Shown here: positions 12,369 through 19,680 of the stretch, piece after piece | Layout: each line of letters opens with the position of its first letter | Numbering within the stretch: position 1 is the stretch's first letter | From: a virus | DNA: 21,892 bases | IMG/VR virus record: IMGVR_UViG_3300043409_000039 | Location: 1-21,892 of that record | Reading direction: 5' to 3' (one strand) | The notes under the pieces: generated by a model | The model's input: only the letters and a program-made list of their open reading frames with translations | What the model was told of the DNA's origin: nothing | Database searches by the model: none | Position numbers and translations under genes: made by a program

Positions 12369-12995
12369 CTACATCACCAGATTGCATGAGTTAACCCAAG
12401 CATACTTGCCTTGCTTTGGTTTAGATTTAAGAATGTAATCAATACTACCCATTGGGATTTGCAACTTATTGCTTGCATCTAACCAACTATCGTAAATAAT
12501 GTTGTTAATTTCAATTTTTTGTTTATGTGCTTTAGCATTTTTTTGCTTATGTTCTTTTGTTTTTGCAACCCCACGAACAAACTTCATTGTTTTTTCTATG
12601 GATTCTTTTGGCATTTTTTTGCCTTTCATGCCAGATACTCGACCAATTAACGCTTTTGTCCTGTTTGCAATATGCTGTAAAGATTGCGGTTTGCCTTTTA
12701 AATGTGCGCCGGAAATTTCTCCGCCACCAATAGCAATATTCCATCCAATGCGTTCTTTTGATCTTAATTTTTTTTCTATTTGCAAACAATAATTTTCATC
12801 TGCAATTAAAATTATTTCTTTAATTAAATTTTCCCACCCGTATTTACGAATTGCTTTATATAAAGTTTGTTCTTTACCTGTTTTAGCACAAGATTTGTGA
12901 GAAAACATTCTTTGTTTAAAATCATGTGCAATACCAACATAACCATCAATGGTTACGTCAGTTTGTTCAGGTAAGTGAATCCAATATATATACAT
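12369..12995 (-). CDS. GIY-YIG homing endonuclease (connector/closure junction)
   Basis: This 208-residue mobile endonuclease has a GIY-YIG core starting MYIYWIHLPE with DGYVGIAHDFKQR at residues 17-29. AIRKYGW (48-54) follows, with a candidate catalytic Glu at 74 (LQIEKKL) and NIAIGGG at 87-93. A central stretch IANRTKALIGRVSGMKGKK looks like NUMOD3. The C-terminal INNIIYDSWLDASNKL to KYAW looks like a NUMOD1-type DNA-binding module. I start at ATG 12995. A TTG at 13001 overlapping the connector stop would add only two residues. The stop TAG directly abuts the ATG of the closure gene. It is distinct from the other GIY-YIG protein in this block. It looks AT-rich like the other two endonuclease genes, suggesting transfer. 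Confidence 0.9.
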   Translation of the reverse strand: MYIYWIHLPEQTDVTIDGYVGIAHDFKQRMFSHKSCAKTGKEQTLYKAIRKYGWENLIKEIILIADENYCLQIEKKLRSKERIGWNIAIGGGEISGAHLKGKPQSLQHIANRTKALIGRVSGMKGKKMPKESIEKTMKFVRGVAKTKEHKQKNAKAHKQKIEINNIIYDSWLDASNKLQIPMGSIDYILKSKPKQGKYAWVNSCNLVM

Positions 12996-12997
12996 AA

Positions 12998-13663
12998 TCA
13001 AAAAACAAGAGGTTTGTAAGGTCTAAGCAATTGATCCACGCCAAAAGGAATGTCACGCAATGCTGCCGCCGTGGTGTTGCTGCGATTGTTGTAAATATGA
13101 GTTAACAACAAAAGCCCTGCTTGTTTAATAACAGGATACTGACCAATTGGGTTTCCGTTGCAGGTGTACGTCACCATAATTGGATTGGTGTTGTAATTAT
13201 TGATCGACTCAGGCAAGCCAGTCACGATGACTTTGTTGCCCGTTGGATCGTACCAATAAGTCGAACTTGCCATTGCAACTACTACGGGCGGTGTTGCTCC
13301 GTTGTAGTATTCAACGGCGTTAATTGTTACGCCTGCTTGCCCTTGAAAAGATTGCGAAACCGCAGGCAAATCCAAGCTAATTTCTGTCCCACCCATGCCA
13401 TTGAACGTGCCATAGTAGACCTTATAGGTTGTTGAGCAAATTGACATACCAAGGTAATCCTCAATAGCCATGCGGGTAGCCAGTTCAATACTGGTTAGGT
13501 ATACGTCTTGGCTCTCATCTTCAAACAAATTAAGTTGCTGCGTGATTTCTTCAAGCGTAAGCCATTGGGTAGAAATGTCACGGCTAATCTGTTCAACTTT
13601 TTCATAGTTAAACGGGTTGCGGCTAGTGCCTAGATACGGATTGCCTGCAAGGGTGTCAGACAT
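12998..13663 (-). CDS. Head-tail connector (HK97 gp6-like)
   Basis: This 221-residue protein would form the ring beneath the portal to which the closure protein binds. An all-helical start (VEQISRDISTQWLTLEEITQ, residues 23-42) is followed by a helix that includes TSIELATRMAIEDYLGM. The end, VIKQAGLLLLTHIYNNRSNT then LRDIPFGVDQLLRPYKP, is the recognisable signature of gp6-like connectors. A beta-rich central insert (about residues 80-165) makes it longer than the compact HK97 gp6 and resembles the larger two-domain versions. It sits directly after capsid gene 2, the canonical position. It is followed immediately by a GIY-YIG endonuclease gene, which separates it from the closure gene. The stop TGA is three bases from that gene's ATG. 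Confidence 0.9.
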   Translation of the reverse strand: MSDTLAGNPYLGTSRNPFNYEKVEQISRDISTQWLTLEEITQQLNLFEDESQDVYLTSIELATRMAIEDYLGMSICSTTYKVYYGTFNGMGGTEISLDLPAVSQSFQGQAGVTINAVEYYNGATPPVVVAMASSTYWYDPTGNKVIVTGLPESINNYNTNPIMVTYTCNGNPIGQYPVIKQAGLLLLTHIYNNRSNTTAAALRDIPFGVDQLLRPYKPLVF

Positions 13664-16116: not shown

Positions 16117-16914
16117 TCAAATACGTTTGGAAAGTACCGCTAACAATTCTCGTTCCTCAAGGGCTTTTAGAATGTTATCGGCTTCATTGACCACCGTATC
16201 AGGATCACCCTGACTTGGGGCAGATTCAAGGGCTTTGACAGCATCACGCTGCTCAAGAGCTTTCTTGAGTACGCAAGATACGGCGGTCGCATCTTTTCGT
16301 GAAACCCCTGCATCACGCAGGACTTTTTCGATTGTTCGTGGGTTCATATTTCCTTTGGCATCAAAATATTCAAGTTGTTGAATATTGGCTTCAGGATTGT
16401 TTGGGTACATCACTACGCTAATTTCACGTAGTCCACCCTTAGTGATTTGAAAATATCCATCTTCGTATGGGTCATCAGAGCCAACAGTCATTGGCGTACC
16501 ATCTTCTTTAACCCATTGAAATTCATCAGCGTATGCGCCAACAGAAACACCGCCAAACATTTTGGGTGATTCTTTAAGAACTGAATATAGGTCAGAACCC
16601 GCTACGGTATTTAGATAAAGTTTGCCAGATGCAGACATACCGTTTTCATCAAACGTTACATCATTCCATTCACCGACAGGCATCCCCATGTCGTTATGAT
16701 TTAGGAACATCGGCATTGGTTTGTCAGACTTGGCAAATTCATCTGCCCATTGTGCAAAGCCTTCGGGCTGATAGTTAAACTTGCGCCCATCTGCGCCTTT
16801 TCTTGCACCCCAACTGGTGATACGGGCTTCGATTTTGCCTGTTGGGTTAGCTGCTTCGTCTGCTGATTTGCCCAAGGTAACTTGCGCTTCGCAAACTAAC
16901 GTGATTTGTTTCAT
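16117..16914 (-). CDS. Prohead maturation protease (HK97 gp4/U35-like)
   Basis: This 265-residue serine protease would cleave the scaffold/delta domain of the major capsid protein and itself during head maturation. Numbering from the ATG at 16914, the catalytic His is at 73 in MFLNHND, the nucleophile Ser at 124 in GGVSVGAY, and the conserved LREISVVMYPNNPEA is at 162-176, with E164 a possible third member. After residue 180 comes a helical, charged tail typical of proteases that enter the procapsid. A longer frame would begin at a TTG four codons upstream. I prefer the ATG because GGGG lies eight bases before it. The gene ends with TGAGGA, its stop overlapping the ribosome binding site of the capsid gene, which gives tight coupling to its substrate. 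Confidence 0.93.
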   Translation of the reverse strand: MKQITLVCEAQVTLGKSADEAANPTGKIEARITSWGARKGADGRKFNYQPEGFAQWADEFAKSDKPMPMFLNHNDMGMPVGEWNDVTFDENGMSASGKLYLNTVAGSDLYSVLKESPKMFGGVSVGAYADEFQWVKEDGTPMTVGSDDPYEDGYFQITKGGLREISVVMYPNNPEANIQQLEYFDAKGNMNPRTIEKVLRDAGVSRKDATAVSCVLKKALEQRDAVKALESAPSQGDPDTVVNEADNILKALEERELLAVLSKRI

Positions 16915-17047
16915 TGATAGCCCCAAGACTAATTGATTGATTATTATCTTGTATTGTGGGCTGCTGCACTACTTTTTTCGGTAGTTTAACACTAGGTTTT
17001 TTAATTTGTAAATTTAATAATGCACAAATCTTGTTAACCGTGTCCAT
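16847..17047 (-). CDS. Possible small coupled protein between portal and protease
   Basis: This 66-residue open frame starts MDTVNKICALLNLQIKKP at an ATG that overlaps the HNH stop (TGATG). It fills the otherwise empty 132 bases before the prohead protease and then runs 68 bases into it in another frame. The stop/start overlap is the type used by real genes throughout this block, and by the portal/HNH junction. The first half is basic and helical with no recognised domain. The overlapping second half (SLRSASYLGQISRRSS) may merely be a shadow of the protease. No function can be assigned. It could be a genuine small head gene once coupled to the portal, or only leader sequence for the protease. 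Confidence 0.45.
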   Translation of the reverse strand: MDTVNKICALLNLQIKKPSVKLPKKVVQQPTIQDNNQSISLGAINETNHVSLRSASYLGQISRRSS

Positions 17048-17100
17048 CAGGTAGCCCCAATATTGTTTTTCCGCTTCTGATTGCCGCCGCCACCGCCTGT
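17047..17100 (-). repeat. Portal C-terminal tail, copy 2 (fused to HNH gene)
   Basis: This is the second copy of the portal tail, read in frame as the end of the HNH protein. It is probably the original portal end, because it is directly followed by a TGATG overlap leading into the next native reading frame, the arrangement expected of the uninvaded genome. Gly codons differ between the copies (mostly GGC here, mixed GGT/GGA in the portal), which suggests the portal copy came from another lineage rather than from a recent exact duplication. Confidence 0.75.
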
Positions 17101-17652
17101 AGTTATTTCCCAAATTTTAAACCTACTTTGCGGTTTTTTTGACCCATCTAACCAACTTCTTATAGTGCATCTGTTTAATCCCAGACTTTGTGCAGCCAAG
17201 GTGATGCAATCAAAGTTAATGCCATTTATTCGTAATTTTTTTGAACTTGGATTGGTTGTGCCATAATTTTTTAAGGTATCGCTGCCTCGCAATTTAATCA
17301 TTGCATCTTTGTGCTTACTTTTTATTTCTGGTCTGCTCATGGCATTGTTGTTGCCGCTTTTGCCTTTCTTTTTGTTGACTTCATCAGAAAATTTACGATT
17401 TAAATTTGGCTTGCAAATTAAAGCATTTGTTTTGTGATTCGCTTGCCTTAAAAGTCTATTGTATGCCCACGCATCAGCATCTTTTTTGTGCAATTTATAC
17501 AAAACATAATGAGCAATAGCATGATCTATTGGCGAAAGTAAAATTAAATTATTAGGCGTGTTGTCACCACCTGCATGGATTGGCACTATATGATGCCAAT
17601 GAAACCCTGCAAGTAGTTTTGGTTTTTTTGTGTGTATTTTTTTTCGTGGCAC
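17047..17652 (-). CDS. HNH homing endonuclease with portal-like C-terminal tail
   Basis: This 201-residue free-standing homing endonuclease carries an HNH core at residues 18-48 (HWHHIVPIHAGGDNTPNN, then LILLSPIDHAIAH): catalytic His at 20/21, Asn at 34/35, third His at 44 or 48. A Lys/Asn-rich linker with NNNAMSRPEIKSKHKDAM follows (about 100-120). A DNA-binding module RINGINFDCITLAAQSLGLN continues to SRFKIWEI, as in NUMOD/IENR1-type repeats. The start is GTG overlapping the portal stop (TAGTG); no ATG is available nearby. The last 17 residues, TGGGGGNQKRKNNIGAT, do not belong to any endonuclease module and nearly repeat the portal tail. This suggests the gene landed inside the portal's 3' end and kept the old end as its own. 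Confidence 0.92.
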   Translation of the reverse strand: MPRKKIHTKKPKLLAGFHWHHIVPIHAGGDNTPNNLILLSPIDHAIAHYVLYKLHKKDADAWAYNRLLRQANHKTNALICKPNLNRKFSDEVNKKKGKSGNNNAMSRPEIKSKHKDAMIKLRGSDTLKNYGTTNPSSKKLRINGINFDCITLAAQSLGLNRCTIRSWLDGSKKPQSRFKIWEITTGGGGGNQKRKNNIGAT

Positions 17653-17705
17653 TAGGTTGTCCCTATGTTTGCCCTACGTTTTTGATTGCCACCACCTCCA
17701 CCAGT
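17652..17705 (-). repeat. Portal C-terminal tail, copy 1 (inside portal)
   Basis: Seventeen codons plus the stop encode TGGGGGNQKRRANIGTT. The copy at 17047-17100 encodes TGGGGGNQKRKNNIGAT. By hand alignment 14 of 17 residues and 34 of 51 coding bases agree, with most differences at third positions. Both copies end in a stop/start overlap: TAGTG here, TGATG in the other. The simplest reading is that this copy was brought in with the endonuclease cassette and restored the portal's end. Confidence 0.8.
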
Positions 17706-19052
17706 CGATTGTGGACTAGTTCCGGCTATAGGTTCTTGCTTTTTGCCGCTAATTAACTCATCGTGACCGTCAACTTTAGGCATATTCAAATATTCTCTTG
17801 CCTCGTTCGCTGACATAATACCCGCATTTACGCCTTGCACCGCAAAATTGATCTGGTCGAGTGCTGCGCCTTTTAGGAAGTCTTTAGTGTCAAAGCGAAC
17901 GCACAAATTAGGATACCCTTTAAACAAATGGTAGTTTAATTTCTGCTCAATGTTAATAATCATTGGGTACATAGTGGCTTTGTAGAACTCATCCAGCATC
18001 GTTTGCGTGTTGTTGTATTTCTGATCGGCAATACCAATCATCGCAGGCGGCACACCAAACAAACCACAAATCCGCTTCATTGTTTGCGTCTTTAATTCTG
18101 ATGTTTGCGTGTCCTGTAGGGTCAACATATCAAGCGGTTGATACTTCATACCTTGATCTAAAAGCATCCCTTGTCCGGGCTTGCTCTGGTCTGTGGCACG
18201 ACTTCCAGTCATGCTAGACCATGCCTCTTTTAATCTAGCGGCAATCTCTTTATATTTGGCATCGGGAATAACTTGTTCAGTAACAAACATCCCGCTAGGC
18301 TTTGCCCCGTTCTGCATTACAAAGTTGGCATAAAGATCAATATCTTGGTCAAGTGCTACTAATTCCGTAGCCAAAATGCCCTTGTTAAATCCCGCCGAAC
18401 CTTGCCATGCAGCTTCTTTAACGTGCATGACTTGATGTGCAGATAGCGGCTCATCTTTGTTAAATCCATACGATGGGGTCGAGAGTGTATATGCAGGGTA
18501 GCGGGTATCGGTCAATCGACTAGTGATTAGCGTAGCGTCAAGGTTATACATCTCGATTGGCGTTTGCATTGAGTCTTGCTGATCTTTGCGCCACCAGAGC
18601 GTAAAAGTTTCGCCTGCCAAGTCTTGCCACATTGACCACTGATACCAGAATTCATATTGACTTTCAAAATGGTTTGGGTTGCGCAATAAGTTAAGGACTT
18701 GTTTGGCTTTAGCTTTGTCCCGTGCGCCAATCTTAGGTGACTGCAAAGCGTCAACAAACGTACCGTCATCAGCTTTCGACATAATGCTAATTGGCAATTG
18801 TGCCAATGCTCGTGCCTTTACGCCAACCGCTGCCATAACTGTAGAGTTACGGGTAAGCATAGACATATCAACGACACGACCTGCCGTAGTTGTACTGCTA
18901 GTCGTTACATATAACAGTTGTTGGCTTACAGTTTGCCTGCCGCCTGCGCCTTGATAAATTACGTTATTGCCTAATTGCGTTTGAGCGAACAACGTGTTGC
19001 TTTCACTTATTTGAGATGGCTTATCTCTTTTAAAAAAATTAAATATACCCAT
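17652..19052 (-). CDS. Portal protein (HK97 family)
   Basis: This 466-residue protein forms the ring at the capsid vertex through which DNA enters and leaves, and onto which terminase and connector dock. It matches HK97-type portals: an N-terminal arm MGIFNFFKR, a stem and wing region with YEFWYQWSMWQDLAGETF (about residues 133-150), and the characteristic late segment MKRICGLFGVPPAMIGI followed by an NNTQTM stretch. Length is normal. The ATG lies one base after the stop of the preceding endonuclease gene; the sequence AAAGGATTGAG before it is a good ribosome binding site. The C-terminus is a Gly-rich tail TGGGGGNQKRRANIGTT, and a diverged copy of this tail ends the following HNH gene. The portal's stop TAG overlaps the GTG start of that HNH gene (TAGTG). 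Confidence 0.95.
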   Translation of the reverse strand: MGIFNFFKRDKPSQISESNTLFAQTQLGNNVIYQGAGGRQTVSQQLLYVTTSSTTTAGRVVDMSMLTRNSTVMAAVGVKARALAQLPISIMSKADDGTFVDALQSPKIGARDKAKAKQVLNLLRNPNHFESQYEFWYQWSMWQDLAGETFTLWWRKDQQDSMQTPIEMYNLDATLITSRLTDTRYPAYTLSTPSYGFNKDEPLSAHQVMHVKEAAWQGSAGFNKGILATELVALDQDIDLYANFVMQNGAKPSGMFVTEQVIPDAKYKEIAARLKEAWSSMTGSRATDQSKPGQGMLLDQGMKYQPLDMLTLQDTQTSELKTQTMKRICGLFGVPPAMIGIADQKYNNTQTMLDEFYKATMYPMIINIEQKLNYHLFKGYPNLCVRFDTKDFLKGAALDQINFAVQGVNAGIMSANEAREYLNMPKVDGHDELISGKKQEPIAGTSPQSTGGGGGNQKRRANIGTT

Positions 19053-19053
19053 C

Positions 19054-19680
19054 TCAATCCTTTAGCGTTAAAAACCACCCGACTTTAGGCGGATAGCTAT
19101 ACAACTTTCCTTTTACAACGCAATTATTGCCGTACAAATTCATTCTTACTTTTTTTTCTGTGCAATTATTTCCAACCGCACAGTCAGCGATTGATGCAAA
19201 AATACCGTTAGGCGTGGTGTAAAAACCTTTAAATTTTATGTTTTTTTCACCTTTATTCTTACCTTTACTAGGCGTATACCCTATTTTTTTTATTGTTTCT
19301 TTTCTTTTTTCAATTGTTTTGATAGATTGTTTTTTGCCTAAATTAACTTTCCGCAAGTGTTCTTTTTGCGCTTGTGTTCTTTTAATCCCAAGATTTGTAT
19401 GTGTTCCTAATTGCCCTTCACCGCCGTCTGTGCGGTTTACCAATTTATATTTGTAAAACTTAAATTTTTGTATTGCTTCCATTTCAACAAGATATGCAAG
19501 TTCTTCATCAATGTTTTCAACTAACTTGTAACTGTTAAATCCACCGTCTTTATTGACAATGTTATGCCAATGCTTGTTTCTTTTATTTTTCCCGTCAATA
19601 CGTTTCTTTGTCCCTTTGCCAACATAGAAAGGAACGCCTGTGCCAATTCGTGTGTGAACGTAGACATATGCAGTATTCAT
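19054..19680 (-). CDS. GIY-YIG homing endonuclease (terminase/portal junction)
   Basis: This 208-residue free-standing homing endonuclease nicks or cuts a DNA target to spread its own gene. The GIY-YIG core is visible as YVYVHTRIGTG at residues 5-15 and FYVGKG at 18-23. A candidate metal-binding Glu lies in LVEMEA (64-69), and an NRTDGGEGQ segment (82-90) follows, as in many phage enzymes. The middle is Lys-rich and linker-like. Residues about 149-185 (KFKGFYTTPNGIFASIADCA onward) resemble the small DNA-binding repeats found at the C-end of such enzymes. It starts with ATG 14 bases after the terminase stop and ends one base before the portal ATG. It looks more AT-rich than its neighbours, consistent with acquisition. 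It has no role in virion assembly. Confidence 0.9.
   Translation of the reverse strand: MNTAYVYVHTRIGTGVPFYVGKGTKKRIDGKNKRNKHWHNIVNKDGGFNSYKLVENIDEELAYLVEMEAIQKFKFYKYKLVNRTDGGEGQLGTHTNLGIKRTQAQKEHLRKVNLGKKQSIKTIEKRKETIKKIGYTPSKGKNKGEKNIKFKGFYTTPNGIFASIADCAVGNNCTEKKVRMNLYGNNCVVKGKLYSYPPKVGWFLTLKD

Follow-up and report, generated by a model that had tools for sequence, protein, structure and literature searches.

How can a nuclease gene come to lie in an essential, tightly packed phage operon and end in a copy of its upstream neighbour's last codons? The question is raised by an uncultured tailed-phage fragment, a 21.9 kb virus record (its full 21,892 nucleotides are called the window hereafter), whose head operon lies on the minus strand and reads terL, a GIY-YIG gene, the portal gene, an HNH gene, a small ORF and the prohead protease gene, continuing with two capsid-like genes, the connector gene, a second GIY-YIG gene and a head-completion gene, with three nuclease genes of two families among them. 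Among annotated phages, Methylophilaceae phage P19250A comes closest (portal identity 68%), and no gene is annotated there between the portal and the gene that follows in the protease position. The reading that we favour, with a probability of roughly 80%, is that the HNH gene belongs to the free-standing endonuclease genes of homing type and was inserted by replacing the portal 3' end.

Two portal tails in the head operon

The portal gene (17652-19052, minus strand; 466 aa; Pfam Phage_portal, E = 1.5e-59) is now completed by the tail TGGGGGNQKRRANIGTT (copy 1, 17655-17705, minus strand), and the portals of uninvaded relatives end in the same type of tail. The HNH gene (17047-17652, minus strand; 201 aa; Pfam HNH, E = 1e-5) begins with a GTG overlapping the portal stop (TAGTG), and closes with a TGA that shares bases with the small ORF's ATG (TGATG). 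This ORF (16847-17047, minus strand; 66 aa) gave no match in a PHROG search and directly follows the portal in empty relatives. The last 17 codons of the HNH gene, TGGGGGNQKRKNNIGAT (copy 2, 17050-17100, minus strand), are a displaced portal tail that serves in frame as the HNH C-terminus; they repeat the last 17 codons of the portal with 14/17 residues and 34/51 bases identical. Four codons are identical, ten differ silently and three change the residue, which means that 10 of the 13 changed codons are silent. The copied tail, the mostly silent nature of its differences and the two overlapping stop/starts had all been proposed in a first-pass annotation of this DNA, and each was reproduced here, coordinates and counts included.

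The tail match is neither chance nor a mere Gly run, because the runner-up matches found when the whole window is translated in six frames are much lower, with 7 identities versus 14 for the 17-residue tail and 6 versus 8 for the 11 residues past the Gly run. In addition, the HNH protein, when used as query in a protein search of the record, also matched the portal end (E = 8e-5). Copy 2 is predicted to be disordered, with pLDDT values below 50 for residues 187-201 in an HNH model that is itself of low confidence (mean pLDDT 59). This copy equals the portal tail of the uninvaded phage L023 residue for residue, and it runs into the native downstream gene just as the tails at empty sites do. A nucleotide comparison of both window tails with those of relatives singled out neither copy as native; the assignment of copy 2 as the probable resident, and of copy 1 as the putative newcomer, is thus based on position and on agreement with L023 rather than on nucleotide affinity.

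Empty and occupied sites among relatives

Portal relatives were taken from viral contigs, and their sites were scored as empty or occupied with the prohead protease gene (16117-16926 in the window, minus strand; Pfam Peptidase_S78) as the anchor, which left 177 distinct portal 3' ends on contigs that also show the protease. The insert is absent from 170 of them, and the tails of these empty ends belong to the GGGGGNQ...NIG type (119), to a related GGGGNT...GQAGKA type (50) or to one close variant. Each HNH-free portal carries a single tail of the same kind as those in the window, and in close relatives the portal stop is followed immediately by the small ORF, i.e. by the frame that starts at 17047 in the window, as the first-pass annotation had anticipated for uninvaded alleles. 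An HNH-free near-identical relative of the window phage is absent from the sample, in which the best portal body reaches 80%.

The HNH gene is sporadic, with one fixed site and a gap at this site in most relatives, and plotting its presence on the portal-body tree demands six changes, all of them forced by well-supported branches. Members of the same HNH family are found at the portal junction in five more lineages (L080/L099, L083, L084, L096/L101 and L100) and are about 50% identical to the window protein. None of these portal-junction homologues carries the Gly-rich tail. A search of genome contigs with the HNH alignment returned no relatives. The same portal-small ORF junction is occupied by a second kind of cargo in L165 (4001-8974), where the portal has lost its stop and runs on, and non-nuclease ORFs totalling about 3.3 kb separate it from the small ORF.

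The HNH protein itself matches PHROG 655, a homing endonuclease family (E = 5e-14), and its C-terminal half matches the DNA-binding domain profile of I-TevI (1i3j, E = 0.004), while a weak hit to the NUMOD-like domain of I-HmuI (E = 0.04) falls below the cut-off. The residues of the catalytic motif (H20, H21, N35, H44 and H48) are invariant across seven homologues. Packaging-associated HNH proteins reportedly occur beside terminase and portal genes, and the HNH gene of the window adjoins this very region, so it might be regarded as a packaging protein whose common tail is a functional motif of both proteins. We find this hardly credible, as a gene missing from 170 of the 177 distinct relatives is not a conserved member of the packaging module, the homologues at the same site do without the tail, the best family matches are homing endonucleases, and a GIY-YIG gene at the connector shows the same structure (see below).

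Portal ends replaced together with the HNH gene

Three HNH-bearing phages have near-identical HNH-free relatives (L096/L142, L084/L109 and L080/L075), and in all three pairs the mismatches are crowded at the portal end. For L096/L142, 23 mismatches fall in the final 80 nt versus 2 in the preceding 320 nt; the corresponding figures are 19 in the final 120 nt versus 3 in the preceding 280 nt for L084/L109, and 21 in the final 100 nt versus 8 in the preceding 300 nt for L080/L075. The difference between tail and body is significant in each (p = 1e-10 for L096, 1e-4 for L084 and 6e-3 for L080), and identity returns shortly past the HNH stop. The changed tail codons are mostly silent, the ratio of silent to residue-changing codons being 12/3, 7/3 and 7/0 for L096/L142, L084/L109 and L080/L075, respectively. 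Uninvaded pairs with 93-96% identical bodies have tails that are 94.5% identical on average, with a minimum of 82.5% (n = 46); measured against this range, the tail identity of L096 (66.7%) lies well outside, that of L084 (80.7%) just outside, and that of L080/L075 (83.3%) at its edge. These pairs bear out the history suggested by the first-pass annotation in that a recoded portal end accompanies the insert. The displaced end, in turn, is read in frame at the 3' end of the HNH gene, and the sequences show or strongly support this anatomy and history.

Gain and loss of the HNH gene are indistinguishable from the pair comparison alone, and homing genes are often lost, which leaves room for the view that the HNH-free twins are the derived ones, having shed the gene through recombination with an uninvaded phage that replaced the tail in reverse. 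We judge this improbable. The uninvaded phages around L096 have the tail type of L142, so the change in this pair is most simply a gain, and a loss would leave the portal-end remnants on the HNH ends unexplained. Duplication of the tail in place, target-site-like or tandem, followed by drift of the two copies, also deserves consideration because the insert is flanked by two copies as in a target-site duplication. Here the 17 base differences between the copies come with only 3 residue changes, whereas neutral drift of one copy would give about 10, and 3 or fewer residue changes were obtained in 0 of 20,000 simulations. Besides, both copies are complete portal-type tails, and the near-identical pairs diverge from 80-120 nt upstream of the stop, past the duplicated part, so that we consider such an origin very improbable.

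Replacement of the portal 3' end by an incoming gene is further supported by the right-hand joins, at which varying lengths of portal-end sequence are retained. The window keeps 51 nt. In L080, the HNH protein ends in GGTAAATAATG, which equals the portal end of its clade plus the next start; in L100, it ends in MGKT-stop, resembling portal ends, so that L080 and L100 each keep a few codons; in L084, GCATAA is followed by nearly the same spacer as after the L109 portal, i.e. the last codon and the spacer were kept; and in L096, the join falls immediately ahead of the following ATG. With only 6-20 nt, the remnants in L080, L084 and L100 could each be due to chance, and they are weaker evidence than the 51-nt stretch in the window. 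The remnants in L080/L075 and at the connector agree with a displaced copy that is closer to uninvaded near relatives than the incoming copy is, but they are short.

A GIY-YIG gene at the connector 3' end

The same two-junction structure as for the portal HNH gene is seen around the GIY-YIG endonuclease gene at the connector 3' end (12369-13001, minus strand; PHROG 314 homing endonuclease, E = 2e-18), with gene-end copies of 12 nt. The last codons of the head-tail connector gene (12998-13663, minus strand) are recoded (CTTGTTTTTTGA at 12998-13009), and the displaced native connector end, CTGGTGATGTAG (12369-12380, minus strand), forms the end of the GIY-YIG gene and matches the connector ends of uninvaded phages, e.g. 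TTGGTGATGTAG-ATGGCAATTGCCCG in L006. Orthologues of this GIY-YIG gene occupy the connector site in other phages, and we surveyed the connector alleles by motif. Of the 100 alleles with the head-completion gene immediately behind the connector, 97 have an end made up of YTGGTG, one further codon and the stop, and the remaining three are TTGGTC or TTGGTT variants. The connector end is recoded in 10/10 distinct nuclease-bearing alleles (the window, L012, L258-L261, L263, L297, L298 and L338), and four of the nucleases (those of the window, L012, L298 and L338) themselves terminate in the native YTGGTGATGTRR, adjoining the start of the next gene. The L012 nuclease resembles the connector GIY-YIG gene of the window in its DNA-binding part.

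GGTGAT can pair with the complementary 3' end of 16S rRNA, from which we infer that the retained connector end probably acts as the ribosome-binding site of the following head-completion gene. Recoding is also found where a spacer of at least 5 nt but no nuclease follows the connector, in 21 of 22 such alleles, and the nuclease-free L265 has the same recoded connector end as the nuclease-bearing L261. Such ends may have been left behind as scars by a lost nuclease, or may have been freed when the binding site moved into the spacer. Nine of the nuclease-free connectors (L265, L271, L279, L283, L290, L319, L323, L329 and L333) combine a recoded end with a 7-nt spacer and have their exact end codons in common with nuclease-bearing alleles; they possibly represent scars left by a lost nuclease as well as resistant alleles.

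The third nuclease gene of the window is a GIY-YIG homing-type gene in the terL-portal intergenic region (19054-19680), and inspection of this gene for a gene-end copy revealed none. Other additions to the head region were observed among the relatives, including an HNH-like insert between terL and portal in L023 (2241-2837), a GIY-YIG insert between the two capsid-like genes in L024 (8867-9520), and a DNA-methyltransferase-like ORF between terS and terL in L062, L066, L109, L177 and L184. In L035 (5936-7261) and L172 (4740-6077), the second capsid-like gene has an extra N-terminal domain (MPKPT.AMK.EA.RGL.WR.EF.RGGT...).

Proposed insertion mechanism

Empty relatives proceed from the portal tail to the small ORF, and invaded phages from a portal with a diverged but protein-conserving tail to the HNH gene, a displaced portal-end remnant and the original downstream sequence. 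We propose that the enzyme would cut within the conserved 3' portion of an uninvaded portal gene, at a site predicted to lie around SSPQ(D/S)TGGGG, and that repair from a donor phage would copy the donor portal end together with the HNH gene, co-converting about 80-120 bases. The right arm would then rejoin inside the displaced tail, whereby the old last codons become the C-terminus of the HNH protein. In the window, the whole old tail would have been kept because the join lies at the tail start, while elsewhere only a few codons would survive. The next gene begins in overlap with the stop, and its start region is probably preserved along with the old codons.

The first-pass annotation had further supposed that the recoded tail protects the site from re-cutting. 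In that case, recoding would have been selected as a shield of the invaded allele, an addition to the replacement model and not a substitute for it. The tails of HNH-bearing phages are indeed recoded, mostly silently, and nuclease-bearing connector alleles never retain the YTGGTGATG end, yet the same pattern would arise from co-conversion without selection, and the connector end could also change freely once its ribosome-binding constraint was lost. Moreover, in copy 2 of the window 51 nt of the native tail still lead into the small ORF, and a target therein would remain. Co-conversion tracts of free-standing phage endonucleases are documented (PMC2988022). Co-conversion accounts for the recoding more simply than protection does, and we regard a shielding role as possible but rather doubtful.

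Judged from the gene sequences, replacement of a host-gene 3' end, with the original end kept as the nuclease C-terminus, is a repeated mode of insertion, seen at both the portal and the connector. With little more than even confidence, we extend this to the view that unrelated families of homing endonucleases in tailed phages routinely enter the junctions between genes of essential head operons as a cassette of a replacement 3' end and a nuclease, the displaced end supplying the nuclease C-terminus and the start region of the next gene, so that the neighbours would stay functional in the absence of an intron or intein. The earlier phrase that an endonuclease can invade the middle of an essential gene was too strong, as the insertions lie within the last 1-17 codons.

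Comparison with known systems

The intron- and intein-free manoeuvre highlighted by the first-pass annotation is present here, but it is not new in principle, as gene-end replacement by an endonuclease ORF is already known from fungal mitochondria, where mobile ORFs (mORFs) replace gene C-termini in Allomyces macrogynus atp6, in atp6, atp9, cox2 and nad3 of Glomus sp., in Phlebia radiata atp6 and cox2, and in Ophiostoma rps3 (PMC3630166, PMC4019555). As in the head operon, a LAGLIDADG or GIY-YIG endonuclease ORF lies there between two copies of the host-gene 3' end, of which the incoming copy completes the gene with mostly silent differences and the displaced native copy lies downstream; the latter matches uninvaded relatives in the fungi and may do so here.

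Free-standing homing endonucleases of T4-like phages (seg, mob) likewise are HNH or GIY-YIG genes beside conserved genes, and mobE (UAAUGA), segC, segF, mobA and mobC overlap the end of the upstream gene as the HNH gene does here; a term search of the review describing them found no duplicated or replaced host-gene ends (PMC2988022). The HNH endonucleases of lactococcal skunaviruses are homing-type genes too, sporadic in occurrence but fixed in location, and some of them show marker-exclusion activity; a term search of that paper found no replaced or duplicated ends of neighbouring genes (PMC12724721). I-TevI has a DNA-binding domain like the C-terminal half of the HNH protein and I-HmuI, weakly so, a NUMOD-like domain; unlike these enzymes, the window HNH protein is not intron-encoded and has an extra portal-derived tail. 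We found no report of the gene-end replacement arrangement from phages in the open-licence literature.

The arrangement offers a selfish nuclease gene a route to occupy an essential, tightly packed phage operon harmlessly and without splicing, and it explains odd C-terminal tails of phage nucleases. Its signature, a sharply bounded and mostly silent 3'-end change plus a remnant on the adjoining nuclease gene, is readable and could serve to map homing events and to guess cut sites in uncultured phages. The element of the window works like a C-terminus-replacing mORF of fungi, although it is not classed as one, being located in the head operon of a tailed phage, and the replaced ends are much shorter here. 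What is new is that tailed phages have it, at a pair of head genes and with two unrelated nuclease families, HNH and GIY-YIG, together with the in-frame use of the displaced end as the nuclease C-terminus, abutting the start of the next gene, in contrast to Glomus atp6 and cox2, whose native copy is not expressed.
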